Below, piece after piece: positions 20,847 to 44,647 of a DNA stretch of 64,000 nucleotides (position 1 is the stretch's first letter; each line of letters opens with the position of its first letter). The notes under the pieces were generated by a model. That model did no database searches. It had not been told where the DNA came from and worked only from the letters and a program-made list of their open reading frames with translations. The stretch covers positions 8,812,001 through 8,876,000 of the forward strand of contig NC_058339.1 in NCBI RefSeq assembly GCF_905475395.1, in the 5' to 3' direction. This DNA comes from Chrysoperla carnea (taxonomy: Eukaryota; Arthropoda; Insecta; Neuroptera; Chrysopidae). The translations under genes were made by a program, and so were the position numbers.

Positions 20847-21083
20847 ATGCAGCGTCATTACTACCCAGCGATGTTTCTATTGGTTTGGAGAAAAACAATT
20901 TTAATAACATAATAAATAATCATGAAGTAGAAAGTTGTAATCAAAATGTTGTTAACCCAAATTGTGGGAGATATAACCTAGAATTAGCTGATAGTTATGC
21001 ACCACTGCAAAGCTCAATTATTTTGGGTACGTAAGACTAGATTTTTTTAAACCAAAGCCATTTGTTATCATTTGAATCGTATT

Positions 21084-21127
<44 letters not shown>

Positions 21128-23267
21128 TAGATCCAGATAACAATAATATTAATATGTTTCTATCCAGCGAAGTTCCTATTATTGTTTTAGATGAAAATGC
21201 CTTTAATAATATTATAATAATAAATAATGAGGAGGACAATAATAACGATAATACGGTTGACCCAAGCTGTAAGGTAAATGACAACTGCGAACAAGGGGAC
21301 AACAATGATCCTGATTTTTTCCCCAACAATAGTGAGTGCAGCAATGACACTGTTAGCGAGGGAAAATCACCTGATACTTTGGTTGAAAATGTCGAAGAAA
21401 CACCAGGTAATGTGGATACAATAACGAAAAGGAAAAGAAAAGCAGAACCAGCAGAGTGGAAAAAGAACGTAAAGAAACGGCTTAGAAGAGAAGGTAAAGT
21501 TTATGAATATAAAGATAGAAAAAAGGAAACAACAAATAAAGGAAATGTTAAACTTATAAAAGCCAAAGAAAGAAAGCTTGGCCCTCCATGTACCAAAGAA
21601 ACTTGTAAGAAATCGAAGAAAAGATTTTGCCAAAATTTTTCGGAAGAAGTTAGGCAGGAAATTTTCAAACATTTCTGGGAAGTACTTTCTAGGGATGAAA
21701 GAAAAACCTTTGTTTCATCTTTAGTAGACTGCACGAAACCGGTACAAAAGAGAAGACCAACGTCTGGAGATAGGAGAGGGAATACTCTTCATTATCATTT
21801 AAAAATAAAAACAAATGAACGAAAAGAAGTATGTAAAGAAATGTTTTGCAACACATTATCGTTGAATAATTGGTCAGCCCAGTATTGGGCGAAAATCGGG
21901 GAGCATGGTATGAGATCAAATAAAAATATTAATACTCCTTCAACTTCTTCTGTTAGGAGTTCAAAAAGAAAATCTCAAACCGACAAAACGGCAAAATCAA
22001 AGTTTGCAATAGAGTATATCGACTCCTTACCCAAACTTGAGTCACATTACTGCCGAAAAGATAGCAGTAAGCTTTATTTAGAACCAATGATTTCTTCGTT
22101 TCAGCAACTGCACAGGTTGTATTTGGACAGATGTAAGGAAGCAGGAATAGAAGGACTGTCCAGAACCAGTTTCAGGGAACTTCTCAGTTCAAAAAATGTT
22201 TCACTATTTACCCCTAAAAAGGACCAGTGTGATATCTGTTGTCAGCATACGGTTGGTAATTTGTCTGATGTGGATTATGCATCACATATCGCGGAAAAAG
22301 ACAGGGCCCGTGCAGAAAAAGAGGCAGATAAAAAAAAAGGTGCACAAAAGAAGTGCGAGGTCATCTGTGTTGACGTACAGGCAGTTAAGTTGTCTCCTTG
22401 CCTAAAAGCTTCTGCACTGTACTACAAAACAAAGCTTTGTAGCCACAATTATACGGTGTTTGATATGACAACATTGGATGCCCTGTGCTACTGGTGGGAC
22501 GAGAGCGAGGGAGAGCTAAAATCTTCAAATTTTGTCAGCTGTTTAATAAATTATTTAGAGGAATTAGTTTTTAGCTGGCCTTCTGAAATTGACCGCGAAA
22601 TTATTATTTGGAGCGATGGCTGCGGCTACCAAAATAAAAATAAAGTTCTCAGTAATGCCCTACTGCAATTTGCTGTTTTAAATGATATTACAATATTTCA
22701 AAAATACCTTGTTCGCGGACACACACAGATGGAATGCGATTCTGTACATGCAACAATTGAAAAAAAATTAAAAAACAGAGACATCTATTTACCCCATGAG
22801 TATATTTCAGTAACTAAGGAAGCCAGGATGAAGCCTTTTCCTTACAGAACTAAATGTATCACCTATGATTTTTTTAAAGATTTCACGGGGGCTAAATTTG
22901 AAAGGTTTTTGTATAAATCATTTGTTAATATTTATTACATTAATTTTTTATTTTTCTTTAACACAGTTTCATTTTACATTTTAGATTTTCGTCAATCCGA
23001 CCGGATAACAAGCCAACTGAACCTACAGTGCACCAGCTGTGTTCCATTAAATACACCCCTGCAGGAAAGCTATATTATAAACTGAGTTTCATTGACGAGG
23101 AATTTGTGGAATTAGAACGTCGTGCCAAAAAAGTAGTGGACGATCCTTATCCTCAAATGTATAAGGAAAGACTAAAAATAAAACAATCAAAATTTGAACA
23201 TCTACAGCAGCTAAAGAGTGTTATACCTGTTGGGGCACATGCCTTTTATGATAACTTACCTCATTAA
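20847..23267 (+). CDS. DUF7869-like putative transposase or derived gene, spliced
   Basis: Supported exons: 20847-21026, 21131-22904 and 22985-23267, with phases 1 and 2 agreeing at each join. A 30-nt exon at 20757-20786 is also phase 1 but has a weak acceptor. The last intron (GTTTTTGT to TTTTAG) joins KFER to FSSIRPDNKPT, the SSIRP block typical of this family, then YKLSFIDEEF. The main exon has an acidic and then very basic N-terminal part, Cys pairs (DQCDICCQH), CEVICVDVQ (candidate first Asp), YYWWDE-like CYWWDESEGE, IIWSDGCGYQNKN (second Asp) and VRGHTQMECDSVH (third acid candidate). No stop or shift appears. The first ATG in the main exon is 21154; if the upstream exons are used, the true start lies further 5'. 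It differs strongly from the DUF7869 gene at 12.8-17.7 kb. Confidence 0.75.
21086..21126 (+). repeat. 41-bp T run before a splice acceptor
   Basis: An uninterrupted run of T fills the intron of the DUF7869 gene directly before GTAG at 21127-21130. It is an extreme polypyrimidine tract, and a likely slippage and assembly trouble spot. Confidence 0.95.
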
Positions 23268-23909: not shown

Positions 23910-24857
23910 AAAAGTAGTCAATAGACGTAAAATAAACTTAACAAACACAAATAATATTGTTATATACTTATAATTTTTACTTTGCTTTAGAATATAATGG
24001 CCAATAAAATTCTGAGTGCGGAAGAAATTTTGAACTTACTAGAATCCGGAAATGTATCTGAGCTCGAACTAAGTGATGAAGAACAATATGAGATGGAACA
24101 AGATGATACTAGAATTTTTACTGATCCGCTAGTAAGATTGGAAAATCGTAATTTGATAAGAATAGGGACTGATACTTTGCGGCCCTTCCAATCGGAATTA
24201 GAAGAGCCAATTTCCGATGATGATGCCAAAGATAATAAGGAAAATGTTGCACAAAAACATATCTGCGACACACTCAAACTGGGTAAAAGAAGCCTTTCAA
24301 TCACCTCAATTACCTCAATGGGGTGAAGATGAGATCCATGAAGAACTTTTGTCCCCACTTGCATATTTTGAGAAGTATTTACCTTCAGAGTATTTCTCAG
24401 AAATATCAACTTATACCAATATATACGCATTGCAGAATGATAAACAAAAGTTCAAACCGAGTACACCAAGAGAAATAAAAACATTATTTGCTCTACATAT
24501 TATGATGGGATGTTTGAAATTCCCCCAAATTAATTTGTATTGGGAGAGAGCACTGCAGATCGATTGTTTCGTAAATAATATGACAAGGAATCGTTTTTAC
24601 GAGTTGCGAAATAATTTGCATTTAGTTAATAATTTAGAACAAGAGAACAATACAGACAAATTTTATAAAGTTCGGCCAATTTACGAAAAGATTCGGCAAA
24701 GAATGTTAGAATTGCCCATTCAGAAGGAAATATGCATCGACGAGCAATTAATACCATTTAAGGGGCACTTAAGTGTTAAACAATATATTAAAAATAAACC
24801 CAATCCATGGGGAATCAAATTATTTTTATTGTGTGCAAAAGATGGGATCGCTTATGA

Positions 24858-27394
24858 CAGCGGTGCCCAACCTACGGCCCGCGGGCCGGATCCGGCCCGC
24901 GAAGAAGCTCAATCCGGCCCGCGAGCTCCTAGTCGGATATTCGTAAATTATTGACCAAATACCGCCTATTTTTTAAATTTATTAAAGTATTTTCTGTGAA
25001 TTTTATTAACTACAATATTTCTGATATTGTTATATGTATTTTGATTGAATAATTTGTATTTGTACATGACATCGGCATGACACGGTGTGTCATGCCGATG
25101 TCGACTAGTGCTGCCGCGAGTGGCCGATAGTCGAGGTGACTACAGAGTGAAGTTAGTTATAATCATGGAGTTACTTGTGGTAATTATTTCATAGGAGATG
25201 CTCACATATGTTTACATTAACTTTTGTGAAAACTTTAAGTTAATTTTTGATAAATAAGTTATTAAAAAATATAAATTTAATTTTGTGAAAGTTTTATAAT
25301 ATTGAATATTTTTACCCCAAATAATGTCGACGAAAAAACGTAAAGTGGATAGTGAGTGCCGCGTTTTTCAAGAGAAATGGACAAACATGTACTTTTTTGT
25401 GGCGCAAGGGGAAAAATGCTTATGCCTTATTTGCAAGGAAAGTTTATCTGTATTTAAAGAACATAACATCAAACGACATTACGATTCCAAACATAAGCAG
25501 ACATATAACAAATACGTCGGTGTGTGCCGCGAAAATAAAATTACAAATTTACAAAGTGAAATTGGCGGATTAACCAAAGTATTTAACAACGCGAAAAATA
25601 TTAATGAGTCGATTGTGCGAGCTAGCTATCGAGTAGGTCACATAATAGGCAAAGAAGTTCATCCATTTTCAGATGGGGAATTTGTTAAAAGGTGCTTAAT
25701 GGCGGTAGTGGAAGAAGTGTGCCCGGAAAAAAAAAGTGCATTCGAATCTGTGAGTTTATCACGTATGACAATGACACGAAGAATAGAAGATTTAGGAAGT
25801 GATCTTATGGTACAATTAAAATCAAAAGCAAGTCAGTTCAAAATGTTTTCCATTGCTACAGATGAATCTACGGACGTGACTGATATTGCGCAATTGCTTG
25901 TATTCATCCGTGGAATAAATAATAGTTTTGAAGTTACGGAGGAACTTGCTGCAATGAAAAGTATTAAAACAACTACTACGGGTGAAGATTTATTTAAGGA
26001 AGTATCCGAAATTTTTTATGATCTTAACCTTGACTGGAATAAATTAACGGCCATAACTACAGATGGCGCTCCATCTATGGTTGGTCGGCACAATGGGCTA
26101 GTAGCCAGATTAAGGAAAAAAGTGCTGGAATCAAATGGATCACCGCCGTTGGATATACATTGTATCATTCACCAACAAAATCTTTGTGGAAAAATTTTAA
26201 ATTTAGATCATGTTATGAAGGTAGTTACTAAATCCGTAAATTTAATAAGATCATATTCTACGAATCACAGAATATTCAAAGAATTTCTTTTACAAATTGA
26301 AGCCGAATATGGTGATGTGGTTTATCATAGCGAAATCCGCTGGCTGAGCCGCGGTAGGGTACTACAGCGATTTTTTGATTTGAGACATGAAATTGATATA
26401 TTCTTTATTGAAAAATCAACTCAGCTCCACGAACTAAGTAACCCTGTGTGGCTGTGGGATTTAGCTATACTCTGTGATTTAACTGCGTATGTAAATGAAC
26501 TTAATCTCAAATTGCAATGCAAAGACAAACTTATTTCCCATGTATATGCTGATTTATGTGCGTTTCAAACAAAATTAAAGCTTTTCATACAGCAAACGGA
26601 AAAAGGACAGTTGACGCACTTTCCGACTTGCACTGCTTTACGTAAAGAAAGGAAAAATGATAATTTTCCAAGTGAAAAAATTACCAAGATGCTGCAATTA
26701 CTCAGCAAAAGTTTCGAAGATAGATTTGCAGATTTTCACCGGATTAAAAATGAAATACGCTTGTTTGAAAATCCTTTTACAGTGGATGTTTCTACGGCGC
26801 CAGGTGATTTACAATTAGAATTAATTGAATTGCAATGCCAAACACCATTACAGGATCTTTTTCGCGAGAAGTCCTTACCAGATTTTTATGCAGCGTTAGA
26901 TTCTTATCCGAATTTGAGAAACCTTGGAATGAAAATGACAACGGCGTTTGCAAGCACGTACATTTGTGAACAAACATTTTCAACTTTAAAAAGAGCCAAA
27001 CCAGCGTCTCGCGCTCGACTTTCAGATGATCACCTTCATTCCATATTAAGGATGAACGTCACTCAACTTGAACCAAATATTAAAAAATTAGTTTCTGAAA
27101 AACAACATCAGACTTCACATTAATAAATCGTGAGTACACATTTTGTTCTTTTGAAATTTTAACCTTTTATGATTTCATTTAATTCTAAAAATAAATTAAA
27201 AAACGCAACATTTTCATAAAATTTATAAATATTTAAAAAAAATGAATCAGCACAAACATATTCGTGAATTCATTGAAAATGTTGAATTTTTTTCAAAGGT
27301 GTTACTAAGATATGCAATTATAAAGAATCCGGCCCGCGAAATCGTATGTCATGATGAATCCGGCCCACGGACAAAAAAAGGTTGGGCAACCCTG
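24858..27394 (+). mobile_element. Intact hAT element (GTF2IRD2/Charlie-like)
   Basis: The termini CAGCGGTGCCCAACCT (24858) and, inverted, CAGGGTTGCCCAACCT (ending 27394) are typical hAT ends, and the 8-bp duplication GCTTATGA is perfect (24850-24857 and 27395-27402). Subterminal copies of CCGGCCCGCG occur at both ends (near 24892, 24913, 27329 and 27358 as CCGGCCCACG). The 2,537-bp element holds one open transposase gene. The ends resemble those of the SPIN/Charlie group. It interrupts the piggyBac gene just before its second-Asp block. Confidence 0.95.
25324..27123 (+). CDS. hAT transposase, full length
   Basis: The protein is 599 aa without a break. Residues 8-60 form a BED/SPIN-type zinc finger (CLCLICKE then HYDSKH). 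The catalytic core follows: FSIATDESTDVTDIAQL (first Asp, about 185), ITTDGAPSMVG (second Asp, about 245), CIIHQQNLCGK, and HSEIRWLSRGRVLQRF (the conserved Trp). The C-terminus carries the hAT dimerisation block (STYICEQTFSTLK, about 545-560). It resembles transposases related to GTF2IRD2 and FAM200. ATG 25324 is the first in frame, and an AT-rich leader of about 460 bp precedes it. The product would cut and paste its own element in the nucleus. With perfect ends and an open frame, it is a candidate for a still active copy. Confidence 0.95.
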   Translation: MSTKKRKVDSECRVFQEKWTNMYFFVAQGEKCLCLICKESLSVFKEHNIKRHYDSKHKQTYNKYVGVCRENKITNLQSEIGGLTKVFNNAKNINESIVRASYRVGHIIGKEVHPFSDGEFVKRCLMAVVEEVCPEKKSAFESVSLSRMTMTRRIEDLGSDLMVQLKSKASQFKMFSIATDESTDVTDIAQLLVFIRGINNSFEVTEELAAMKSIKTTTTGEDLFKEVSEIFYDLNLDWNKLTAITTDGAPSMVGRHNGLVARLRKKVLESNGSPPLDIHCIIHQQNLCGKILNLDHVMKVVTKSVNLIRSYSTNHRIFKEFLLQIEAEYGDVVYHSEIRWLSRGRVLQRFFDLRHEIDIFFIEKSTQLHELSNPVWLWDLAILCDLTAYVNELNLKLQCKDKLISHVYADLCAFQTKLKLFIQQTEKGQLTHFPTCTALRKERKNDNFPSEKITKMLQLLSKSFEDRFADFHRIKNEIRLFENPFTVDVSTAPGDLQLELIELQCQTPLQDLFREKSLPDFYAALDSYPNLRNLGMKMTTAFASTYICEQTFSTLKRAKPASRARLSDDHLHSILRMNVTQLEPNIKKLVSEKQHQTSH

Positions 27395-28070
27395 GCTTAT
27401 GATTTCATTATGTATCAAGATGCGAGAACGAACTTGAATCCTGATTGGTTAAAAGAATATGGATTTGGAGCTACAGTCATATTAGAACTTTCCAAAAGAT
27501 TGGATGAGAAAGGCTATTTTCTATATTATGACAATTACTTTTCTTCGTATAAGCTCCTCCAACAATTGAAAATAAAAAATATATACGCAGCTTGTACGAT
27601 ACGAATTAATAGGTTTCAAAATCCTCCATTTAGTTCTGATAATGAATCTAAAAATAAAAAAAGAGGGCATATGGAGGAACTGGTTAATTCTAATGGAGAT
27701 ATTGTAGTTGTCAAATGGATGGACAATAGAAAAGTTGTTCTTGCATCAAATTTTGTTGGTATAGGTGAAGTAGATCTTGTAAGTAGATGGGACAAGAAAC
27801 TTAATAAATACATTAATGTTACAAGACCAGAGATAGTAAAAAAATACAACCATGGTATGGGTGGAGTCGATTTGATGGACCGAATGATTAGCTTGTACAG
27901 AATATATATTAAATCAAAAAAATGGACACTTCGACTCATTTTCCATGCCGTGGATTTGGCAATTGTCAATTCATGGTTTGAGTACAAATCCCACGCAAAA
28001 AAAGAGTGTATCCCCGAAAAGGACATATTAGATTTGTTACACTTTAAAATGAGAATTGCTGAAGAACTAA

Positions 28071-28678
28071 TAGTCTAAGATCCCGCTGCAAAAATCTGCA
28101 TGTATCTGTTTTTTTGATAAAACTTAATTTTTATGAATGTTAAGTAATAGCAGAACAGATTACGGCAGGGTTGCCTATCAAAATTTGGCCGCAAATATTT
28201 TTAATTAAATTTTTTAAAATTGATTTCTGTTGATAAATTGCATGTACATGTTTTTTACGTAAATCCAATGTTATTTAAAAGCAAATGATGGGAGAAATAC
28301 AAATAAAAAGGGTTGCCAGCTCTCAGTCGGCCGCAACCTGTGGGTTGCCAGGTGTGAACAGGTATATTACTGTTGATTATTTGCACTTACGTGTTTTTCA
28401 CTTCAATTATATATGAAATTAAAGTTTATTTATTTCTCTATACGATAACACATGGTTGCCTGAAAAATAATGGCCGCAAGTAGGGGTTGCCATCATTTGA
28501 ATTTATGTCTCCTATTACTGTTGATTATTTGCACTTACGTGTTTTTCACTTCAATTATATATGAAATTAAAGTTTATTTATTTCTCTATACGATAACACA
28601 TGGTTGCCTGAAAAATAATGGCCGCAAGTAGGGGTTGCCATCATTTGAATTTATGTCTCCTACGCTGGAGGACTGCAA
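28071..28678 (+). repeat. Left 608-bp TIR with four GGTTGCC-N11-GGCCGCAA sites
   Basis: A bipartite motif, GGTTGCC then exactly 11 bases then GGCCGCAA, occurs at 28169-28194, 28311-28336, 28454-28479 and 28602-28627. In the last three, a second GGGTTGCC follows 3-5 bases later. Sites three and four sit in a direct repeat of about 148 bp (about 28365-28661). Each site is in the same orientation. This looks like an array of transposase-binding sites. Confidence 0.9.
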
Positions 28679-28848
28679 GCTAGAGAATGCGCGCGCCACT
28701 TTGGGTAGTAAACAAGGATGCCATATGGCAGATGGGATTTATGTAGACGTTTTCTTTAATATACTTCTTTCGTTTTTCGAGTGAAGAGTTCTATTCTGTC
28801 AATTTTTGTGTTGATATATTTTTGCCAAATTAATAATTGTTTTTCAAA

Positions 28849-31800
28849 ATGAAGACGTGTTTTTTGTGCGGCAGTACTGACAATGTCATTGAGTTTAGTG
28901 ATGATTCATTACAAAAGTGTAAACTAATGCTATTATTCCGCCAAAAAAAACAATTTAAATACAGTGATTTAACCCTAAAAAGTGAAACAGACAAAATAAA
29001 TGGTTATCACTCACAGTGTTATAAAAAGTTTACGGTTTTAAAACAAAAATATAAGGAAGAATTTTCTAATTTTTGTCAAACGCAAACTGTAAGTAAAACT
29101 TTATGTTTATCATACTTTTTTTTCATTTACATTTATATCATGTAATTTACAATGGGATTATTTATAGGAACATTCAGCCACAACTTTTGCTGCTGAGCAG
29201 TCGAGTAATGTTAATAATCCAAATGAAATGTTGATCCAAATGGACGTTGATGAAATGGTGGTATACAATGATCTTAGGACTGGAATTTTGAAGGAGGTAT
29301 GTGATGATTTACAATAAAACGATATAGGTATTTAGGTGCTCCTTTTTCAGATAGTGGTAATATTTCTTTTAGTTCTATAATATTGCTGCAATATTTTAAG
29401 TTAAACCTGAAATGTCGCATAAAATTTTGATTCAAAAAATATGTACAGATAGCAGCTGTGCTTCCCATTGCATTTCTATTCATCAATTCATAGGTACTAC
29501 CATAGATAATAATTATTTATCACTCAACTCACGAGGCAGCGCTTCAATCAATTGACCGCCTTTTTTAAAATACTCAATGCCAAATTCTCAACACAATTGA
29601 TATTTTTACTTTTTTATGTTTTACTGTTTTAGAACATGTTTGAGTATCACATTTTTATTTGAAATGCTATCAATTAGCGTTTTTCCCAAATCATGTGCTT
29701 AAAACAGTAAAACCAAAACATAATTAAACATTTGAAAGAAAAAAACGCTTTTAAAATATAAAATAAATTTATTAAACAACTAATCTTTAACTTTTTTACA
29801 TTTGCATAAAATTTTATATTTCATAAAATTTTATAAATCGTGATTGCTTTCGAGAATCCTCTATAAGACCTACTTACAATAATAAATTAAATATATGTAT
29901 TACATAAAGATTTTAACTTACTACTTAAGTGGAGGCTAGGAAAAGCATTTTCCTTTGTATTAGTTCGCAATTTTCCTCTACAAGGTTAGAATTTAATTTC
30001 TCCGGCGAAATGTAAATCGCAGGCACGATAGTTTCAAATATTCAATGTACGTTCAACCAATCTCTATCGTCCATTTCTTAAATCGCTGAAAAATTAAGTC
30101 TTTCAAGAAGATTTCTTCTCAAGCTAATAATTTTTGTACTTACCTCATAATCTCATAATCCTTAGGAATCGTATGGTAATCTAATCTCGTTTTGTATTTT
30201 TCCACAACCTTTCACTCAACATGCAAAAACTATCTTTTAATTTTATATATTTATAATTAATATTTTATAATAATTGACACTATTTGAAAATAACTATTTT
30301 ATTAGTCTGTCAAATATGACAAGGTAACTATGGTGATGAAACTTTCCCACAAAACAATATTGTAATCAAAGAATTCAGTAGAATTAGCCAAAAAAGTGAA
30401 ACATCTCTATAGAGCTAGATAATCTTTAAAAAAATCATTAAAACCATTTAATTTTTATTAACGTTGAAGTAAATGAAATAAGTTGATCAACTAATTTACA
30501 CTTTACCAGCAATAAATATAATTGTATAAATATTAAATTAAAATAATAAACAATTTTATTTCAGGAGTTGCCCTCAACTTCCACTTCGATGAAATCAATG
30601 GAGTCAACGAATACTTTAGCAAGCTCTCAATATTTAACGCCGACTAAAAAAGTGCTGTGTATGTTTTGTGAAACAGTGGAGAAAAAAGTTGGCGGACGAC
30701 GAGTTTATGTTTCATTTCCAAAATCACAACAGACAATAGATGAAATAAAAAAAATTGCAATGATAAATAATGACACACGAATTTTAGATATACTGGAACA
30801 TTATAAAGAACAAGTAGCATACCATGGAATTTGTTTAACCTCATTTCAAGTAAAAAGAATAAGACAAATTATTGAACAGCCTGAACCTACTGTGTGGCAT
30901 GATAGTAGGAATTTGTATAAAAAAGCATTTCAATCACTTTCGGTTTTAATCACTACTGAAATAGTGGAAAAAAGGAAGGTCATGTATCTTGCTGACCTTT
31001 TTTTTACATACAAAGCACTTTTAATGGAGTATAAACCTGTTCATATGTCCATTGAAGAGTTAAAAAACTATCGAATAGAAGCCTTAGAGCATAAAATTAT
31101 GAATGTTTTTAGCGACTCCATCACTATCGAAACCTCTTCTGGGCCACAACAGAAAAAAATTGTTTACATGCGTGACATTAATATTTCAGAATTGGCTACC
31201 AAAGCTGCACATCTCCAAAATAGAGAAGTCAATAAACTAGAGCATGCCGCTTATGAATTACGTAATTGCATCAAGAGCATTACAGTGAATAAACTTCCTG
31301 AAAAATTGACAGCCGATGACGTGATAAAGGGAGAATGTGAGATCCCTGAAAAACTTTTTGACTTTATGTGTAATCTTATTCAGGGGCCAGATATAAGGCG
31401 GAAAAGTTGTGAAGACGATTATATCAAAATTAAATCGTTATGTAGTGACATAATTTATATTGCATCAAAAGGAACAATTAAACCATCCAAAAACCTGACA
31501 CTTGGTCTTGCTATGAAGTCATTAACCAGTTCTCGAAGAGTTGTTTCTATACTAAATAGATATGGCCATAGCATAGGCTACAACTTAGTAGAAGAAATTG
31601 AAACTGAAATGACATACACAGCACATGAAAACAACAAAATTATACCAAATGGAATAGACATTGTTGAAGAACGCAGTACACATGTTGCATTCGACAATTT
31701 TGATCGTTTTGTCGATACAAGTTCTGGTAAAGATACCCTGCATGACACAGTAGGAATTATCTATCAATTTACTGCAGATGATGAGAATGAAAACTGTGCG

Positions 31801-34800
31801 GATACGGAAAACGATAATGATGAAAATCTGGACAGATCAAGTACGTCAATTGTTGATGAAAATAGCAGCGAATCTTCATCACGTCCTCGTAAAAGAAGAA
31901 GATTTCAAGGAGTTGTCAATGAGATTCGACCATATTACAAACAACCTGCACAAGGTATGACTTTGATTTCCGCCAGTGCCATTGAACAGTTTATTAGTGA
32001 ATGTAAATATGCTACAAACATTGCAATTGATAAAGACTTAATGTGGATTATTTCATTATCACGTTTCAATTCAACTCCAATGTGGTTGACTTATAATTGC
32101 AACCTGTCTTCAGACAATAGTAAAATTCAGACTATTGAATATTTGTCTCCAATTAATGCGTCTCCAACGTCGGACTCTGTTGTTCAGAAAACTCTGGAGA
32201 TAACAAGTGAGATTGCCAATAACTGTAAACAACAAAATATTATTGTCACGTATGATTTAGCAATAGCTAAAATCGCTTGGCAAATTCAAGAAAAATTAAG
32301 ACCTAAATTTGATAATATTTTCGTAAATATGGGTGCATTCCACACACAAATTGCATTCTTCAGAGCTCTGGGAAAATACATCGATTCTAGCGGATTGGTT
32401 GACATCTTAATTAAAGCAGAAGTACTTGGCGTAGGTTCAACAAACAATTTTATTGACAGCAAACACTTTAATCGTTGCAGACGACTTCATCCGTTGATTT
32501 CTGCCGCTTTGCAGATACTGCATTTCAAACAGTATTTATTACAACTAGAAGGTAGTGCTGAAGTGTCTCGTGGAAATTCATCACAAAGTGAAAGTGAACC
32601 TGACGCGCTAGATGAAAACTTATTACCAATAGAATTTGATCCAAATACATTTGATGATGATTTATTAGAGTTTATAAACAATTCGTCTAACCATATTTCA
32701 CCTGATGACAACGAACCAATGATTTTACCGAATTCCTTACAAAAAATAGTTAATGGCTATAAACAATTTTGCTTAATAACTTTATCAGGTGGTCACGGGA
32801 AAACAGCTCAATATTTTTTTCAATATACACAATTTGTCAACTTGTTCTTGAGATTTTCGAGAAGTATCCGCTCTAGTGATTATGAACTATATTTGGATTC
32901 TATTTTCGACATGTGTGATTTGTTTTTCGCATTAAATCAACCAAATTACGCAAGATATTCGACTTTATATTTAAACAATTTAATGAAATTGAAAATCGAG
33001 CAATCACCTCTTCTTTCTGACTTTCGACGTGGAGCTTTTGGTATCAGACGTACAACCGCAAAGTTTGCAAGATCACCTGTAGATTTGTCATTAGAACAGA
33101 CTATCAACGCTGACGCTGGTAATACATTGACTGGTATTACTCACTTTACGAATTCCATAAGTGCTAGACAAAAATGGGCTCTTAGTCACAGTATGAGGAC
33201 TAAGATTTTAACAGCAGTCAAAAAAGAAACAGGATTATTGCACGAAGATGATACGTCCCAATGTTTACAACAACATCAAATTAAAAAAGATAAACTCGAT
33301 TTAAACCAAATAATATCAGTATTTAATAACTCAATAAATCCCTTTAATAAAAATATAGATGAAAATTCGCTGTTCAACATTTCGACTGGCAAAGCAGCAT
33401 CTCAACCTGTGGCTGACTTTCTTCTTAACATTATATCAATTGGCAAGAAACAAAAAATGGAATTTATATCAGAATGTGTTGAAGAACCTGGGAGATTCGT
33501 GAAATCCATTCGTAGAAATAACATTTTAAATTTTGCATCTGACTGCGTTAAAAAAACTCAAAAAAGTAGAGACGGAAGCAAACGCATTCTTCTGAAAATG
33601 GAACGAGATGTGTTTGGACGGCTATTAGCAATAGGATTAAAAAAAAAAGTTGATCTTGAATATTGTTTAACCTTTCCTCTTGCACCTGCACCTCCAGCTC
33701 TTTTTCAATGTTCTGGTGAAATGTTCAAAACGACGAAGTCTAAATTAGCTGATCACTTGAAATCACAAATAAAGCTAACTAATCCTCCACCAATTGATAT
33801 AGAAGTGATTGATGGTTTTTACTTTTTACATCTCATTGGATTTTCCTTGCCTCAGATGTTTGGAAAATTAGCTGAGTCTATTTTAATAAAACTTTGCTCA
33901 ACAAGTGCTCATGAAGTACATATTATTTTTGACAAATATATAGTGCCTTCGATAAAAGATTGCGAACGGGAAAATCGATCAGCGATCAACATTCCATACA
34001 CTATCAACGGCCCTCTTCAACCTCGACCCAATAATTTTCTCGAAAGCCTCAAAAACCGTTATTTCAAAGAGGCACTCATTAATTTTTTAGCTACTTACTG
34101 GGAAAATGATTGTAATGCAACGACATTACTCAATAAAAAAGTCTTCATAACCGTTGAAGAACAGTGTTTCTCTTATAAATCAGATGGAAACTGTGTAATA
34201 AAAACAGAAGAAATTGATTTTAATTGTCAACATGAAGAGGCTGACACGAGAATAATGTTTCACATAAGTAAAGTGCCTCCAAACTCAAAAATTTTAGTCA
34301 AAGCTAACGATACTGATGTGCTCATCATTTTGTTGGGGAATATTCACAAAGTACCTGATATAGAAATTTGGATGGCTGGAACAACTAAAAAAAATGCAAC
34401 TAATCAGAGTTGCATAAATTGTACACAATTAGCATTGAAACTGGGTTCAGAATTATGTCGTGCTCTACCAGCATTCCATGCTTTTACTGGTTGTGATTTC
34501 ACAGCTGCGTTTTATAACAAAGGCAAAGTCAGACCATTTAAATTATTTGCAAAAAATAAAAATTTTCAAACAATTTTTCAAGCACTCACCAATGAAACCG
34601 ACGTATTTGATGAAGAAAAAATTAGTATCGTGCAAGAATTTACTTCCCTCATATACGGTGTCAAGAAATGCTCGAGTGTAAATGACGCTAGATATCAATT
34701 ATTTCAAACAAAATATTCGGCAACGAAAAGTACTGAAAAATTTTTAAAAAATGTCACGACCTTTGACTCAAAAATGATTCCACCTTGCTGGCGGTCATTA

Positions 34801-35151
34801 AAACAAAAAATGTTGAGGACTATTTTTGTCAACTCAATGTGGACGAACGCAACGGATCCATGTTGTGTAAACTTGAATCCTGAAGACTGCGGCTGGAAGT
34901 TAATTGAAAATACTTTACAACCAACATGGTTCATTGGTGACCCCACCCCAATGACAGTTGAAGATATTTTATCAGAACCAAATCATAACTTCGAAGACTT
35001 CGAGAGTAATTCTTCTGACGAAAACTTCCTTTTAGATAAAATAGATTCAATCTCAGAAGACGAAGAAGAAGATGGTTATGATAATAATAATGATGAAAAA
35101 GAAGAAAATGAAAAAGAAGACGAAGAAGAGGACGAAGAGCAAGAAAATTGA
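28849..35151 (+). CDS. 1,651-aa XPG/FEN-like nuclease protein (Academ-type transposase)
   Basis: Exons 28849-29088, 29168-29296 and 30565-35151 join in phase 0 with GTAAGT/TATAG and GTATGT/TTTCAG signals. Two Cys/His units open the protein: CFLCGS with YHSQCYKKF (about residues 4-60), and LCMFCE with YHGICLTSF (about 150-220). A long helical middle without a domain I know follows, including SGPQQKK and SRPRKRRR (possible nuclear signal). Near the end come HEEADTR (about 1346), KANDTDVLIIL (about 1372) and FHAFTGCDFTAAF (about 1432), the acidic triad of XPG/FEN or PIN-like nucleases. The last 50 residues are almost all Glu and Asp. No stop or shift is present. The N-terminal units fit the Cys domain reported for Academ. 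Cutting its own ends is the inferred role. Confidence 0.8.
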
Positions 35152-35215
35152 TATATATATATATAATTTTTCATAACAATTTTTGTGTTGTAAAAGTAAT
35201 ATTATATATTTTTTT

Positions 35216-35221
35216 AATAAA
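35216..35221 (+). terminator. Polyadenylation signal AATAAA
   Basis: AATAAA lies 65 bp after the stop codon of the nuclease gene, in T-rich sequence and before the right TIR. It is the best candidate for 3' end formation of that gene. Confidence 0.55.
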
Positions 35222-35603
35222 AGCACCTCATTCTACAATATTTATCAAACTCGATTATTAGAAAAACCTTAATATAATACCTTCATTGACCAATAGTTAT
35301 AAGTTCGTATTTAATTATATAATACTGTACTTTTAAAAATAATAATTTAGACAAGCTTATTGATATTTAAAACAATATTTAGTAAAGACTCATTCGTTTA
35401 AGAGACTAAAGTCTATGAGAATAAAGTGATTAATTATTAAAATGAAACATGGGTTTATCTTAATACAGTTTTCTGTATGGATTTCATTTCCTCAAAAATC
35501 ATTATTTCACAGATATAAAACTCGAATAAAAATAAATTTTAACTCTGATTCATCATATTTCTCTTCACAACCCAAAGTAACACGCGCATTCCGCCTCTCT
35601 TGT

Positions 35604-36211
35604 TTGCAGTCCTCCAGCGTAGGAGACATAAATTCAAATGATGGCAACCCCTACTTGCGGCCATTATTTTTCAGGCAACCATGTGTTATCGTATAGAGAA
35701 ATAAATAAACTTTAATTTCATATATAATTGAAGTGAAAAACACGTAAGTGCAAATAATCAACAGTAATAGGAGACATAAATTCAAATGATGGCAACCCCT
35801 ACTTGCGGCCATTATTTTTCAGGCAACCATGTGTTATCGTATAGAGAAATAAATAAACTTTAATTTCATATATAATTGAAGTGAAAAACACGTAAGTGCA
35901 AATAATCAACAGTAATATACCTGTTCACACCTGGCAACCCACAGGTTGCGGCCGACTGAGAGCTGGCAACCCTTTTTATTTGTATTTCTCCCATCATTTG
36001 CTTTTAAATAACATTGGATTTACGTAAAAAACATGTACATGCAATTTATCAACAGAAATCAATTTTAAAAAATTTAATTAAAAATATTTGCGGCCAAATT
36101 TTGATAGGCAACCCTGCCGTAATCTGTTCTGCTATTACTTAACATTCATAAAAATTAAGTTTTATCAAAAAAACAGATACATGCAGATTTTTGCAGCGGG
36201 ATCTTAGACTA
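35604..36211 (-). repeat. Right 608-bp TIR, mirror of the left
   Basis: It is the reverse complement of 28071-28678, including the 148-bp direct repeat (about 35621-35917) and all four bipartite sites in opposite orientation. Equal length means no indel since the arms last matched. Confidence 0.9.
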
Positions 36212-36342
36212 TAATGAAGGTTAGAGAAAGCAAACATGCTCGAGGGAGACCATCATCTTCATTATCTACCGAACCCCCCTCCAAAAGAAAAAAAGAAACA
36301 AGGCCGTCAGATGCTGTCAGGTTGGACCAGGTGGATCATTTA

Positions 36343-39039
36343 GGGGAGCGAAGGCTAATACCGTACAGCGGCTAATTCCGTACATCGCTGTTTATACTGA
36401 AAGAATAGAGCTGCGCGCGTTTTGTTGGTTTCAATCATTAGCACAGTAGTCTTAGTGTAACCTATTAAGTTACTGTGTTATTAAGCGTAATCATTTTGCT
36501 ATGAACACATGTTATGTGATTTGTTGCTGGTTTTTACAAGTTTTTAACATAAGAAAATAAGATGTAAGTACCTATTTTTATTAAATTTTATATTGAAATT
36601 ATTATATTTCGGACTATAAATCTCTTTTTAATAAGATTATGGTCAAAGAATCACTTTATTTGAATTTTTTTTAGGTAAGTTCTCATTCTTGAAATTTGAA
36701 TTCGGTTTCGGGAATTACCGTACACTGTACGGTATTACCCGCAATAACAGCTTGTATTAGCGTTGATTTATATGACATGTTATTAAATTTTTATTAATGA
36801 ATAGGTGTTATAATATGTTGTTAATTAATTGTATTACATGGTTTTTTAATTTTTTAGATGGCTCCAAATAAAAAATGTAGTTGGTCACCACGAAAAATGA
36901 AACAAGCTGTGAAGGCTATACAAGATGGAGCTAAATTGAGAAAAACGGCTACTTTATATAATATTCCCGTAATGACACTATCAGATTATGTGAAGAAAGC
37001 AGGCAACTCTCGTTCTATCATTTTTAACAAAATGGGTAGAAAGCCAGTTTTTACAGCACAACAAGAAGCAGAAATAAAAGATCATATTCTGCTTTTAAGT
37101 AAGTTATTTTATGGATTGACACCAAATTCATTGAAGAGAGCTGTGTTTGAATATGCAGAAAGAAATAAAATAAAAAATCCATTTAACAAAGATGCAAGGG
37201 AAGCTGGAAAAGACTGGCTTTACGGTTTTCTCAAAAGAAACCCAGAAGTCTCTGTAAGACGCCCAGAAGCAACAAGTATAAATAGGATTCTTGCTTTCAA
37301 TTCTCAAGAAATTAAATTGTATTTCGATAACTTGAAACAGATCATGATTAAACACAAGTTTCCTCCACACAGAATATTTAATGTGGATGAAACGGGCATA
37401 AATAGCGTTCATAGGCCTGATAAAATTCTTGCTGCAAAAGGGCTTAAGCAAGTTGGAGCAGCAACGAGTTGGGAAAGAGGAAAAAATATTACAATATGTT
37501 GTTGTATCAGTGCTACAGGCCAATACATCCCACCTATGATAATTTATCCCCGCCAGCGTATGCCAGCCAGTTTGGAAAGAGGAGGTCCAAATGGAAGCAT
37601 TTATAAATGCTCCAAGTCTGGATGGATGAATGAGGAGCTATTTCTCGATTGGATCAAACATTTTAAAGAACATACAAGATCAACACTTGAGAATGAGGTG
37701 TTATTGATCCTCGATAATCACTCCAGTCATATTTCTTTAAATATATACCAGTACTGTCGTGAGAATGGCATCCATATGGTAACTTTACCACCACACACTT
37801 CCCATCGTACACAGCCCTTAGATTTAACTGTGTTTGGACCACTAAAAAGTGCATTACATAAGGAGTGCCAGACATATATGAATACGAACAACTATGAGAA
37901 GTTAACGCCTGTAGATCTCATTCCTCTTTTTACAAAAGCGTATCTTAAAATTGCCAATGCAGAAAAGGCTGTTAATGGGTTTAAAACTGCAGGAATTTGG
38001 CCTTTCGATTCGAATATTTTTGAACAATTGACTGAGGAAGGAAATGATGAACCATCACATGAAGCTATTTCACCAGAAGAAGCAATTCATTTAGCATCAG
38101 AGGTAGGTGAACTCATTTCACCAGAAGATGAAGTTAATTTAGAATCGGAGATACCATATGAACCCGTGTTTCCAGACAAAGCAGTCATTCATCCAGATAA
38201 CCAGCAACCTAGTACATCAGGTATGAATAACGCAAGGCAGATTGTTGAAAATATTGAAGAAGAGATTATACAAACATCTTTCGAGGCTATTTCTCCATTA
38301 CCAGACCAAAAAAAAAGGCAAGAAAAAGGGCAAGGTAAAAGAAAGCAGCACTCAATAGTTCTCACTTCCAGTCCAATGAAGACGTTCTTAGAAGATAAAG
38401 AAAATAAGCGAATTGTAAAAAAAGAAAACAAGCCGAAGAAACAGAATATATGCAAAAAAAATAAAAAGGACTCTAAGAAAACACTTCAGAAAAAAACAAA
38501 AAAAGAAACTAAAAACTTTTCAACTTCATCGTCTGAAGATGAATTTTATGACGAAGGGCAATCAGGAGTGAATGAATTGTGTGTTATATGCCATGAATTT
38601 GGGAAGGATAAAGAATTGTGGTATAGATGTGTGTCCTGTGGCAAATGGGCACATGCTTTGTGCAGTGGAGCAAATTCTGCGGACAATTATGTATGTCTAA
38701 TTTGTGAATAAATAAAATAATAGGTACCCACAGTTAATTAATTTTTTTTTTTTTGTATAAAAAACCTTCTTTCGGGCTATTTAGGGTCTTAAAATTATGT
38801 ACGAAATTAGACGAACAAAGTACGGAATTAGACGCAAGTCTCGGGTAATTCCGTACAAATAACTTTTTTAAATATTTTGATTTTGACACTGTCATATTGG
38901 ACACTCTCAATTATGGATTATTTATATAAAACTAGATTAAATTTAGGATGGTTTGATATATAATACATTGAATTCTATTAAGTAGTTTCGGAGAAATGCA
39001 CGTTTAAAGTTAGGTGTACGGCAATACCCTCCGCTCCCC
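36343..39039 (+). mobile_element. pogo/Tigger-type element B
   Basis: GGGGAGCGAAGG at 36343 and, inverted, GGGGAGCGGAGG ending at 39039 form the termini; TA is duplicated at 36341-36342 and 39040-39041. The element is 2,697 bp with one open gene. The word CCGTAC or GTACGG recurs in both subterminal regions (about 36361, 36380, 36718, 36729, 38829, 38854, 39017), standing where element A has ATATGGAC. It interrupts the C-terminal part of the surrounding piggyBac gene; taking it out with one TA gives DHLPEYENR and then the Cys-rich tail. Confidence 0.95.
36858..38711 (+). CDS. pogo/Tigger transposase with C-terminal PHD finger, second family
   Basis: The protein is 617 aa and intact. It has an N-terminal psq helix-turn-helix (WSPRKMKQAVKAIQDG through TLSDYVKK), a second DNA-binding half (WLYGFLKRNPEVSVRRP), the DDE_1 core with FNVDETGIN (first Asp, about 175), VLLILDNHSSH (second Asp, about 290) and SHRTQPLDLTVFGPLK (third Asp, about 325), an acidic repeat-rich linker (EAISPEEAI, ELISPEDEV), a Lys-rich tract, and a C-terminal PHD-type finger (CVICHEFG through CLICE). 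It shares domain order with the pogo at 13.0-15.7 kb but is a distinct family. A likely 5' UTR intron (GTAAGT at 36564 to TTTTAG at 36857) ends exactly at the ATG, the same design as in element A. Confidence 0.95.
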   Translation: MAPNKKCSWSPRKMKQAVKAIQDGAKLRKTATLYNIPVMTLSDYVKKAGNSRSIIFNKMGRKPVFTAQQEAEIKDHILLLSKLFYGLTPNSLKRAVFEYAERNKIKNPFNKDAREAGKDWLYGFLKRNPEVSVRRPEATSINRILAFNSQEIKLYFDNLKQIMIKHKFPPHRIFNVDETGINSVHRPDKILAAKGLKQVGAATSWERGKNITICCCISATGQYIPPMIIYPRQRMPASLERGGPNGSIYKCSKSGWMNEELFLDWIKHFKEHTRSTLENEVLLILDNHSSHISLNIYQYCRENGIHMVTLPPHTSHRTQPLDLTVFGPLKSALHKECQTYMNTNNYEKLTPVDLIPLFTKAYLKIANAEKAVNGFKTAGIWPFDSNIFEQLTEEGNDEPSHEAISPEEAIHLASEVGELISPEDEVNLESEIPYEPVFPDKAVIHPDNQQPSTSGMNNARQIVENIEEEIIQTSFEAISPLPDQKKRQEKGQGKRKQHSIVLTSSPMKTFLEDKENKRIVKKENKPKKQNICKKNKKDSKKTLQKKTKKETKNFSTSSSEDEFYDEGQSGVNELCVICHEFGKDKELWYRCVSCGKWAHALCSGANSADNYVCLICE

Positions 39040-42084: not shown

Positions 42085-44647
42085 CCCTTAAATGCGCAGT
42101 GTAGTTTAAAAACAACGAAATGAAACGCATAGATAAATGACCAGTTTTTTTTTTTTTTTTTTTTAATAAATAGAACTAACATGTTTCTGAACGAATAAAG
42201 AATAATTTTTTAAGTTGGTAAAATTGAATTTGACATTTGCTTTGACATAACATCTGATCTTATGTAAAAGCGCGGCAATCCGTAACTTTTTGTCGATAAC
42301 AAAAATTGGCTGCAGTTTTTGAATCACAATTTTCGCAAGTAAGTCATTCGATTATATGTATAATTGTTTGTTATATCATTAATTTTATATTTAATTTACA
42401 ATTTATTAAAAAAAATCATAAAGCATGGTGATAAGACCTAATTTATGCTTGTTGTGTAAAAACAACAGTGCGCATTGGTGGTATGTATTTTATGCATGTA
42501 TGGTAAATGTGTTATTTGGGTTTTTCAGCATGCCACGCTCGTTAGGCTTGTTAGATAGTGAAATAAGAGAATATTTAGAGAAACTTGATGACTCGGAAGA
42601 CGGATTGGATGGTTCGGACTCTGAACCGGAGGATGAAGGTAATTATTACCGAAACGTTCACGAGCTTATGAATGATCTTGAAAATGAAGATGAATTGGAA
42701 AACATTGAATTAGATGAGATGAATGAAGATCCTCCATTAGTTACTGAGGATACGGAAAATGCGCAAGAACAGGAGGACCCTCCCCTTGAAGAAAGCAATG
42801 ATGAAGAAGTGAGCATACCAGGAGCACCTCAAAGAAACAGGCCCCTACTATGGAAAAAAAGAAATCTCGTTACTAATGAAGATGACCTTGTGTTTAGAGG
42901 TAATACTCAAATACCAGAAGCTTTATTGAATTGTAATACACCATTTGAATTCTTTTCATATTTTTTTACTCCAAATTTGAAAAAAGAAATTGTTTACGAA
43001 AGTAACCTTTATGCCACACAAAAGCAAATATCTAACCCAGAGACTATAAACGAAAATATACTAAATAAATTTCTAGGCATACTAGTTTTTACATCCGTCA
43101 TAAAATTTCCAAATACAAGGTTATATTGGAGTGATAAATTTGGATATGATCTTATCAAAAACACCATGTCACAAAAGAAGTTTGAAAAAGTAAGATCGAT
43201 TATTCACTTTGCTGATAACACTAAATGTCTCCCAAAGGAACATCCTGATTATGATAGACTCTATAGGATCAGACCACTTATCGAAACACTAAATCATGTG
43301 TTTGGCACCGTCCCTATGGATCAAAGGCTATCCATAGACGAGCAGATGTGCGCTACAAAAATGAGCCACTATATAAAACAGTACTTGCCTAACAAACCAC
43401 ACAAGTGGGGCTTCAAATTGTACCTTATCTGCAGTCTGCAAGGATATGCTCACAAATTTGAGCTATATGCAGGAGGAGGCAATAAAAATACTGCATCTTT
43501 ACCAGGAGAACCAGATTTAGGAGAATCTGGGAACACTGTCATAAGGTTGGCTCGAATGGTACCTCGTCATGTAAACCACATAATATATTTCGACAACTTT
43601 TATACTTCTTTGCCGCTTCTCACCTATTTGGCCAAGGAAGGAATATATTCTTTAGGGACAGTTCGGGTAAACCGCGTACGAAATTCTAAATTACCAGATA
43701 AAAGAACAATAATGAAAAAAAATGTTGCAAGGGGTTTTTACGAAGAGAACGTAGCGAATGTAGATGGTACTGAAGTGAGCGCAGTTGTTTGGAAAGATAA
43801 CAAGCCTGTCAATCTTCTTTCAACTTACGTAGGTGCCGAACCAGCCACCACTGTATCAAGATTCGACAAAAGGAGGAAAGAAAGAGTTGAGATCCCATGC
43901 CCCAAAATAATTCGTGAGTATAACACTCACATGGGAGGGGTGGACCTGTTAGATTCTTTTATAGGACGCTATCACATAACGATGAAGAGCAGGAAATGGA
44001 CTATGCGTCTTTTTTACCACTTTTTGGACCTCTGTGTCATCAACTCATGGGTAATGTACAAGAAAGTGCACAATCAACTGGGTACCAGCAAATTGTTAAA
44101 TTTAGCTCAATTTAGATTAGACGTTGCAGAGACATTGTGTCAGACTGGGTTGCCTATCAGTGGTTGCAAGCGTGGCCGTCCCAGTACCAGCAGTATACAG
44201 GCTCAACTTGAAATGAAGAGGAGTCGCACATCAGCTCAGTCAGTTCCGTCTAAAAATGTTAGGTTGGACCAAACATCACACTGGTCAGTTTGGTTAGAAA
44301 AACAGCAACGATGCAAATACCCCAAATGTACTGGATACACATTTAAAAAGTGTGAAAAATGTCAGGTATCTTTATGCGACACCAAACAGAAAAATTGTTA
44401 CTATAAGTACCATACTGAATAAACATAATAAATATAGATTAAAAAAATCACTTCATTTTTACTTACTCATACATCATAATGACCCCTAAATGCGCAATGT
44501 GGTTTTTAAACAACCAACACATTTTATGAAAAAAATTACATAAAAACTAAGTCAATCTTTTTTTAAATATTTTTCCCTGTAAGTATAGAAGCTAAGTTAC
44601 AAAATATATTTTTTTTTAACAAAATAGAAAATTCGCGCATCTAAGGG
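42085..44647 (+). mobile_element. Nested piggyBac element, separate family
   Basis: TTAA lies at 42081-42084 and 44648-44651. The termini are CCCTTAAATGCGC (left) and CCCTTAGATGCGC (right, inverted). A subterminal inner copy, CCCCTAAATGCGCAATGTGG, lies at 44481, resembling the left end's GCGCAGTGTAG. The 2,563-bp element has one intact gene. It sits about 170 bp downstream of the outer transposase stop codon. Confidence 0.92.
42530..44422 (+). CDS. piggyBac transposase, full length
   Basis: The frame gives 630 aa from ATG 42530 (MPRSLGLLDSEIREYLEKL). A longer frame begins at 42425, but TTTTTCAG directly before 42530 looks like a splice acceptor, so the upstream part is probably an intron or leader. 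Parts in order: acidic N-terminus (EDGLDGSDSEPEDE), FEFFSYFFTPNL, LSIDEQMCATK (first Asp), IIYFDNFYTSLPLL (second Asp), MGGVDLLDSFIGRYH (last two Asp), SRKWTMRLFYHFLD, GRPSTSSIQ, and the Cys-rich tail RCKYPKCTGYTFKKCEKC with CYYKYH. No break is seen. With matching ends it could be an autonomous copy. Confidence 0.93.
   Translation: MPRSLGLLDSEIREYLEKLDDSEDGLDGSDSEPEDEGNYYRNVHELMNDLENEDELENIELDEMNEDPPLVTEDTENAQEQEDPPLEESNDEEVSIPGAPQRNRPLLWKKRNLVTNEDDLVFRGNTQIPEALLNCNTPFEFFSYFFTPNLKKEIVYESNLYATQKQISNPETINENILNKFLGILVFTSVIKFPNTRLYWSDKFGYDLIKNTMSQKKFEKVRSIIHFADNTKCLPKEHPDYDRLYRIRPLIETLNHVFGTVPMDQRLSIDEQMCATKMSHYIKQYLPNKPHKWGFKLYLICSLQGYAHKFELYAGGGNKNTASLPGEPDLGESGNTVIRLARMVPRHVNHIIYFDNFYTSLPLLTYLAKEGIYSLGTVRVNRVRNSKLPDKRTIMKKNVARGFYEENVANVDGTEVSAVVWKDNKPVNLLSTYVGAEPATTVSRFDKRRKERVEIPCPKIIREYNTHMGGVDLLDSFIGRYHITMKSRKWTMRLFYHFLDLCVINSWVMYKKVHNQLGTSKLLNLAQFRLDVAETLCQTGLPISGCKRGRPSTSSIQAQLEMKRSRTSAQSVPSKNVRLDQTSHWSVWLEKQQRCKYPKCTGYTFKKCEKCQVSLCDTKQKNCYYKYHTE

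Follow-up and report, generated by a model that had tools for sequence, protein, structure and literature searches.

The Academ superfamily of DNA transposons reportedly goes back to Kapitonov and Jurka, and Academ elements have a Cys-rich domain. Zhang et al. are also said to have described, in 2016 (Insect Mol Biol), an Academ transposon with recent activity and horizontal transfer. PMC9587614 counts Academ among the DDD/E transposases, and PMC10045372 separates AcademX, with a nuclease and duplications of 3 or 4 bp, from AcademH, with a helicase and duplications of 9 or 10 bp. Here we describe an element found in a 64,000-nucleotide stretch of the Chrysoperla carnea genome (contig NC_058339.1, positions 8,812,001 to 8,876,000 of the forward strand, hereafter the window). 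Window positions 28071-36211 (+ strand) are a complete DNA transposon of 8,141 bp with terminal inverted repeats (TIRs), which we consider, at a probability of roughly 85%, to be an autonomous, recently mobile member of the Academ superfamily of the AcademX type.

Element structure and copies in the genome

The left arm (28071..28678, + strand) and the right arm (35604..36211, - strand) were exact reverse complements over 608 bp (100% complementary) with a mismatch beginning at base 609, and in a repeat search which tolerated two mismatches the arms reached 617 nt. The window copy was flanked by a 3-bp target-site duplication, TAA, at 28068-28070 on the left and 36212-36214 on the right. Equal 608-bp inverted arms and a TAA duplication had both been reported in a preliminary description of the window, and both were recovered here.

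Each arm consisted of four units of about 142-148 bp, arranged head to tail and marked in the left arm by GGTTGCC boxes at 28169, 28311, 28454 and 28602 (extra boxes at 28343, 28485 and 28633) and accompanied by GGCCGCAA boxes at 28187, 28329, 28472 and 28620, with spacings of 142, 143 and 148. The GGTTGCC and GGCCGCAA boxes would be the obvious candidates for protein-binding sites. The inner two units were identical 148-mers, and because both arms have this 148-bp duplication in identical form, they were probably homogenised after it arose.

Copies were sought in the genome with a 630-bp left-end probe (of 56 candidates 40 were scored and 45 matches are listed, which means that weaker relatives are undercounted). 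Eight exact arm matches were found at four places, and the other listed matches were all of 83% identity or less. The four places held full-length copies, each of 8,141 bp and with the same ends, at C3:8840071-8848211 (the window copy), C3:16657635-16665775, C6:10688916-10697056 and C6:10893738-10901878. The three copies outside the window ended at exactly the bases that correspond to 28071 and 36211, where the ends had been placed from the window sequence, and each of the four had its own 3-bp duplication (TAA for the window copy, TTA for the copy at C6:10.89 Mb, and ATA and TTG for the other two). Two copies matched the window copy at all 8,141 positions and one differed solely at window position 30702, giving 1 substitution in total over three full-length comparisons; this difference was a third-position CGA/CGT change which, on reading the codon frame by hand, was synonymous. 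Among the matches listed there were neither decayed nor shortened derivatives of the window family. Near-identity and four different duplications together indicate that the four copies are separate, very recent insertions. Chance was excluded by the recurrence of the same ends and the 8,141-bp length at four places with different duplications, together with an empty site. The very young age that had been proposed is thus borne out by three identical copies and a fourth with one substitution, while the description of a "rare complete copy" was overstated, as the genome contains four complete copies and several related long-frame lineages.

Empty sites were sought by genome searches with the joined flanks of the three copies outside the window. 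For the copy at C6:10.89 Mb the joined flanks matched over 300 of 300 bases, with a single TTA, at C6:10911370-10911669. The surroundings of this site resembled those of the copy over a repeat of about 2.4 kb (3 mismatches in about 2,400 bases), and because the similarity stopped on both sides, within the compared stretches, the site is best described as another copy of the repeat without the insertion. With the flanks of the copy at C6:10.69 Mb no full match was obtained and one 82-base match of 78% identity straddled the join by 12 bases (C5:66538596); with those of the copy at C3:16.66 Mb no join-spanning match was present among the 40 listed (40 of 102 candidates scored). A high-identity piggyBac copy that could serve as DNA-level empty site for the window copy was not found, a relative of 73% identity ending before the insertion point. 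The expectation of empty sites with a single duplication held for the copy at C6:10.89 Mb. The window copy did interrupt a piggyBac transposase open reading frame (ORF), the left part of which lay at 27200..28070 (+ strand) and which continued in frame after the right duplication. Removal of 8,141 bp and one TAA from the window sequence made this frame continuous, ...RIAEELMKVRESKHARGRPSS..., and the joined frame resembled by eye the matching part of the other piggyBac ORF of the window, ...RLDVAETLCQTGLPISGCKRGRPSTSS..., at 42422-44422.

On C6 two copies were separated by 0.2 Mb, and one of them was 9.5 kb from the empty site, as might be seen if segmental duplication or an assembly artefact, rather than transposition, had produced the copies. 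The four different flanks with four different 3-bp duplications, and the halting of the empty-site similarity on both sides after about 2.4 kb, leave that explanation with hardly any credibility and are in keeping with transposition.

The predicted protein

A spliced gene predicted from the ATG at 28849 contained 1,651 codons without a stop and had canonical intron borders. All of its parts are on the + strand: exon 1 (28849..29088), intron 1 (29089..29167, GTAAGT..TAG), exon 2 (29168..29296), intron 2 (29297..30564, GTATGT..CAG) and exon 3 (30565..35151, 1,528 codons and a stop), the last with the same open frame at the four places. Exon 1 would encode a first C2HC unit (CFLC at residues 4-7, with C4 and C7, followed by H54 and C57) and exon 3 a second one at 30658..30834 (CMFC at 155-158, with C155 and C158, followed by H210 and C213). 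Coding conservation of exon 1 was seen in the related proteins L022 (51% over residues 2-76) and L013 (48% over residues 5-73) and, in two pieces, in L014; for exon 2 there was no convincing homology among the aligned relatives. A distant lineage, L064, carried both CxxC..HxxC units in one uninterrupted frame, which supports the predicted joining of exon 1 to exon 3. The Cys-rich feature of Academ elements was therefore present in the window protein as two C2HC units mirrored in L064. In this respect the earlier account, of a spliced and uninterrupted frame of 1,651 amino acids (aa) with paired N-terminal Cys/His units, was confirmed at the level of prediction.

The XPG/FEN superfamily is marked by acidic residues in a fixed order (D, D, E(x)D/E, DxD and D), and the same pattern was found in the C-terminal part of the window protein. 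The putative nuclease domain (33811..34497, + strand) contained D1206, D1246, E1347/E1348/D1350, D1372/D1374 and D1434, and the motifs HEEADTR, NDTDV and TGCD, previously noted near the C-terminus, were located at 1346, 1371 and 1431. Residues D1206, D1246, D1350, D1372, D1374 and D1434 were invariant across all 9 proteins aligned; E1347/E1348 were identical in the 9 sequences of alignment A1 and not in L064.

To this domain we applied profile comparison. A family profile (18 members, 15 retained by the hhalign filter) was aligned with a set of 15 nucleases, namely E. coli PolA, eight phage and two viral-contig 5'-3' exonucleases and the host proteins EXO1, FEN1, GEN1 and XPG; scans of viral contigs for further XPG/FEN enzymes gave none, one (L063, unused) and two. 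Against the combined set hhalign returned a probability of 94%, a P of 1.2e-7 and a score of 62.8 over 198 columns. In match-column controls the unshuffled profile scored 57.5, 200 column shuffles reached at most 21.4 (median 13.8) and the reversed profile 12.7, while against the nuclease set two transposase-core profiles scored 12.6 (A2) and 15.0 (A4), and a positive control, the host XPG set against the PolA/phage set, scored 101.3. L064 together with L060 and L062 gave a P of 1.8e-8 against the combined set, and L062 alone matched Pfam 5_3_exonuc_N at an E of 0.026 (14.7 bits, cut-off 34.3) over the acidic-motif region. The acidic motifs were aligned in register (IDG/VDG, FD/FD, EEADT/EADD, NDTD/GDKD, and the TG..CD/GD..DN region), so that the window protein would share with FEN1, XPG, EXO1, GEN1 and the bacterial and phage 5'-3' exonucleases the motif order and register IDG..FD..EAD..DxD..GxD. 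It differs from FEN1/XPG-type enzymes in that identities in the profile alignment amounted to 16% and that the domain is predicted here to be part of a large transposase protein. Since the profile comparison matched and the Pfam searches did not, the domain is by this comparison a distant member of the XPG/FEN superfamily and not a member of Pfam XPG_I; the window protein did not reach the XPG_I cut-off and had no Pfam match.

Upstream of the nuclease domain lies a putative DDE transposase core (31693..33096, + strand), to which we probably can assign D500 (in a DNxD motif), D687 and E967 as catalytic residues on the strength of their conservation. All 9 aligned proteins had D687 and E967, and 8 of them also had D500, the exception being L015, which lacks that stretch. 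A D..H..E triad with the invariant H716 was also considered and was dropped in favour of D500/D687/E967. The Pfam family DUF6589 matched over the core below threshold in the relatives L045 (E 0.003), L025 (0.0038) and L027 (0.0017), at 16.4-17.5 bits for a cut-off of 27. A whole-genome search with DUF6589 gave 3 matches, none above the cut-off, two of which (C3:2456183 and C4:76328391) lay within pieces that the Academ-like proteins had also detected. As a side observation, DUF6589 (PF20231) may correspond to an Academ-type transposase core; no paper was found for the term DUF6589 in the open-access literature searched. An HMMER profile of the core domain gave nothing relevant against PDB. In its putative architecture the protein would thus have two C2HC zinc units at the N-terminus, followed by an RNase-H-like DDE core and, at the C-terminus, an XPG/FEN-like nuclease.

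Assignment to Academ and proposed mode of action

With AcademX as published the window element has in common a nuclease-bearing protein, TIRs and a 3-bp duplication, which lies within the described 3-4 bp; together with the Cys units these features agree with the Academ-like reading of the preliminary description. The Academ label is based on architecture and duplication length as published, that is, on comparison by description and not with a reference sequence. Differences were also apparent: the window element has arms of 608 bp with four repeated units, as set against AcademX, and is 8.1 kb long as compared with a mean of 5.6 kb for the curated bivalve Academ elements in PMC10294476.

Several results weigh against this assignment or against parts of it. 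A Pfam search with the exon-3 protein, at E up to 10, gave no match. A whole-genome search with XPG_I found 4 places, which to judge from their reading frames look like host EXO1, XPG, FEN1 and GEN1, and no Academ-like element. Host EXO1, FEN1, GEN1 and XPG alone gave P values of 0.0057-0.0086 (0.0086 corresponding to a probability of 5%), and the PolA/phage set without the host proteins a P of 0.0011 and a probability of 21%; because either half alone was weak, the strength of the nuclease signal comes from the combined profile. The HMMER profile of A1 and a phmmer search with the L064 domain found no XPG structure in PDB. AlphaFold models from two-sequence alignments had a mean predicted local distance difference test (pLDDT) score of 41 for the nuclease domain and 32 for the core domain, and Foldseek with the low-pLDDT nuclease model had no PDB match at an E of 0.001 or better. 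DUF6589, seen below the cut-off in relatives, was absent for the window protein and for L064. Finally, the piggyBac frame was also open with both TAA kept, with one residue more, and because both versions stay open it supports the insertion and not one TAA over two.

The single-sequence PDB search of the window protein and the Pfam search of whole L064 gave nothing relevant, and the A1 members searched singly against Pfam gave chance hits only. With hhalign, A1 against host EXO1 alone and larger profiles against host EXO1, FEN1, GEN1 and XPG gave P values of 0.0057-0.04; in comparisons with the host nucleases alone only the TGCD helix was aligned, and with the L064 set also EAD, DxD and GCD. 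The XPG/FEN affinity that had been put forward is therefore upheld by profile-profile comparison (P 1.2e-7 with acids in register) but not by plain Pfam, PDB and genome XPG_I searches.

Two other placements were weighed. An AcademH-type element, or a hybrid of AcademX and AcademH, would belong to the same superfamily as described in print. No helicase family was detected in the frame of exon 3 (1,528 aa) with E values up to 10, however, and all nine insertions examined at both ends (four of the window family and five related) had 3-bp duplications, compared with the 9-10 bp given for AcademH in PMC10045372. As both the absent helicase and the duplication length are at variance with AcademH, we give this placement next to no weight, unless a second gene was overlooked. 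The family could instead belong to a separate superfamily whose likeness to Academ is solely architectural, with zinc units, an RNase-H-like core, an XPG nuclease and a 3-bp duplication. This view is favoured by the basing of the Academ label on published descriptions and by the fact that Pfam has no matching model. The nuclease and the 3-bp duplications match AcademX as described in PMC10045372, and the relatives found outside the genome include a Bathymodiolus contig, bivalves being Academ-rich according to PMC10294476, which is circumstantial. We regard a separate superfamily as distinctly unlikely and retain the assignment to AcademX.

For the working of the element we infer the following biochemical steps. 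The zinc units would bind the GGTTGCC and GGCCGCAA boxes that recur in each long arm. Next, the DDE core would cut the 3' ends and join them to the target across a 3-bp stagger, which would give the 3-bp duplication, and the XPG-like domain would cut the non-transferred 5' strands or trim flaps, such that a second active site completes excision. In Tn7, TnsB begins the reaction and TnsA completes it. The combination proposed here, of a DDE enzyme with an unrelated nuclease that acts on the other strand, may be functionally analogous. It differs in that one polypeptide is predicted here and the nuclease is XPG-like, not restriction-like, and no homology is claimed. That the two active sites share the work in this way is put forward tentatively, at somewhat less than even odds. 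The fuller picture, in which two unrelated nuclease sites split the strands, the protein is loaded on nucleosome-sized (142-148 bp) box arrays and the family is possibly a horizontal newcomer which is still active, is more doubtful; its last part was suggested by the presence of four full-length copies and no decayed or short derivative among 40 of 56 candidates.

Transposition might also be carried out by the XPG domain alone, with the upstream RNase-H-like region being structural or DNA-binding. The XPG acidic residues were conserved throughout and the DDE assignment was made from conserved acids alone, both of which are compatible with this possibility. The conservation of D687 and E967 in 9 of 9 and of D500 in 8 of 9 proteins, including L045 and L064, argues against it, and to our knowledge FEN-type enzymes do not join DNA, which also counts against it. 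We therefore think it unlikely that the XPG domain acts without the core, and prefer a DDE core assisted by the nuclease.

Among the open-access titles and abstract openings listed, no biochemical study of an Academ element was found, most subscription papers being outside that scope. For a test of what an XPG-type nuclease does inside a transposase the window family supplies suitable material: its ends are exactly defined, its four copies are nearly identical and carry a predicted gene free of interruptions, and an empty site occurs naturally in the genome. For these reasons it is a good candidate for bench tests; the claim that it would make a good model stands in that sense, as a well-preserved element useful mainly as a test system. 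The element said to have been described by Zhang et al. in 2016 would share recent activity with the window family and reduces the novelty of a young Academ.

Related lineages and other features of the window

Protein searches each returned at least 55 related matches in the genome, with several frames of more than 1,000 aa. The L015 element, 6,740 bp long with an ATT duplication, had arms about 70% like those of the window family, and so did three short elements of 1,131, 1,330 and 1,330 bp (duplications TTA, TTA and TAA). L015 was considered as an intact second family and rejected, as 35 residues including the DNxD motif were missing. The arms of the short elements (L055 149-1279, L056 210-1539 and L057 204-1533) were 98.7-99.1% like those of the L015 element, and on account of this likeness the short elements are, by arm comparison, its non-autonomous kin. 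In the L053/L054 element (C3:2147538-2154277), L055, L056 and L057 the two arms were near-identical except at bases 5-7 (4 of 4 elements), one end having TAGTCTAAG and the other TAGTACGAG, where both ends of the window family read CTA. This 3-bp asymmetry may reflect one shared ancestral event. Further look-alike pairs were present among the arm-probe matches listed.

The L064 lineage had arms of more than 500 bp, the ends TAGCCC..GGGCTA and the duplication AAA (one copy read at both ends). Each of the nine insertions examined at both ends, this one included, started with TAG and finished with CTA. L064 itself (C3:7201000-7206600) represents another Academ-like lineage, in which one frame covers 1,551 aa, with long arms and a C-terminal Cys cluster. 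A place at C1:128649-128654 kb was identical to the C3 copy over 902 bp of the ends, and one at C6:21975 kb had an equal score in a protein search.

Outside the genome two contigs alone were matched, L045 (JAJRVU010000273.1, a metagenome-assembled genome of Planctomycetota, isolate 'Dive96') and L046 (NZ_CAHJWD020000426.1), a Bathymodiolus gill-symbiont contig. L045 contained a 1,466-aa frame with the same architecture, the core of which was 26-31% identical to the others. Because L045 carries an animal-type frame of that architecture, both are probably animal (host) contamination of contigs filed as bacterial. Four queries found no relative in viral contigs, and the L045 domain as query found none in plasmids.

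In the window, the piggyBac element interrupted by the transposon (24202-28078) was also broken by a hAT-like ORF at 25306-27123 (DUF4371 below the cut-off), which had GCTTATGA on both sides, as in nested transposons. Two ORFs at 13449-15365 and 36858-38711, which we take to be pogo-like, were DDE_1/psq transposase ORFs with, by eye, a PHD-like Cys/His cluster at the end. Two others at 15903-17228 and 21076-23085 contained Pfam DUF7869, with motifs including DNCTGQNKN, and possibly encode transposon proteins of an unnamed type.

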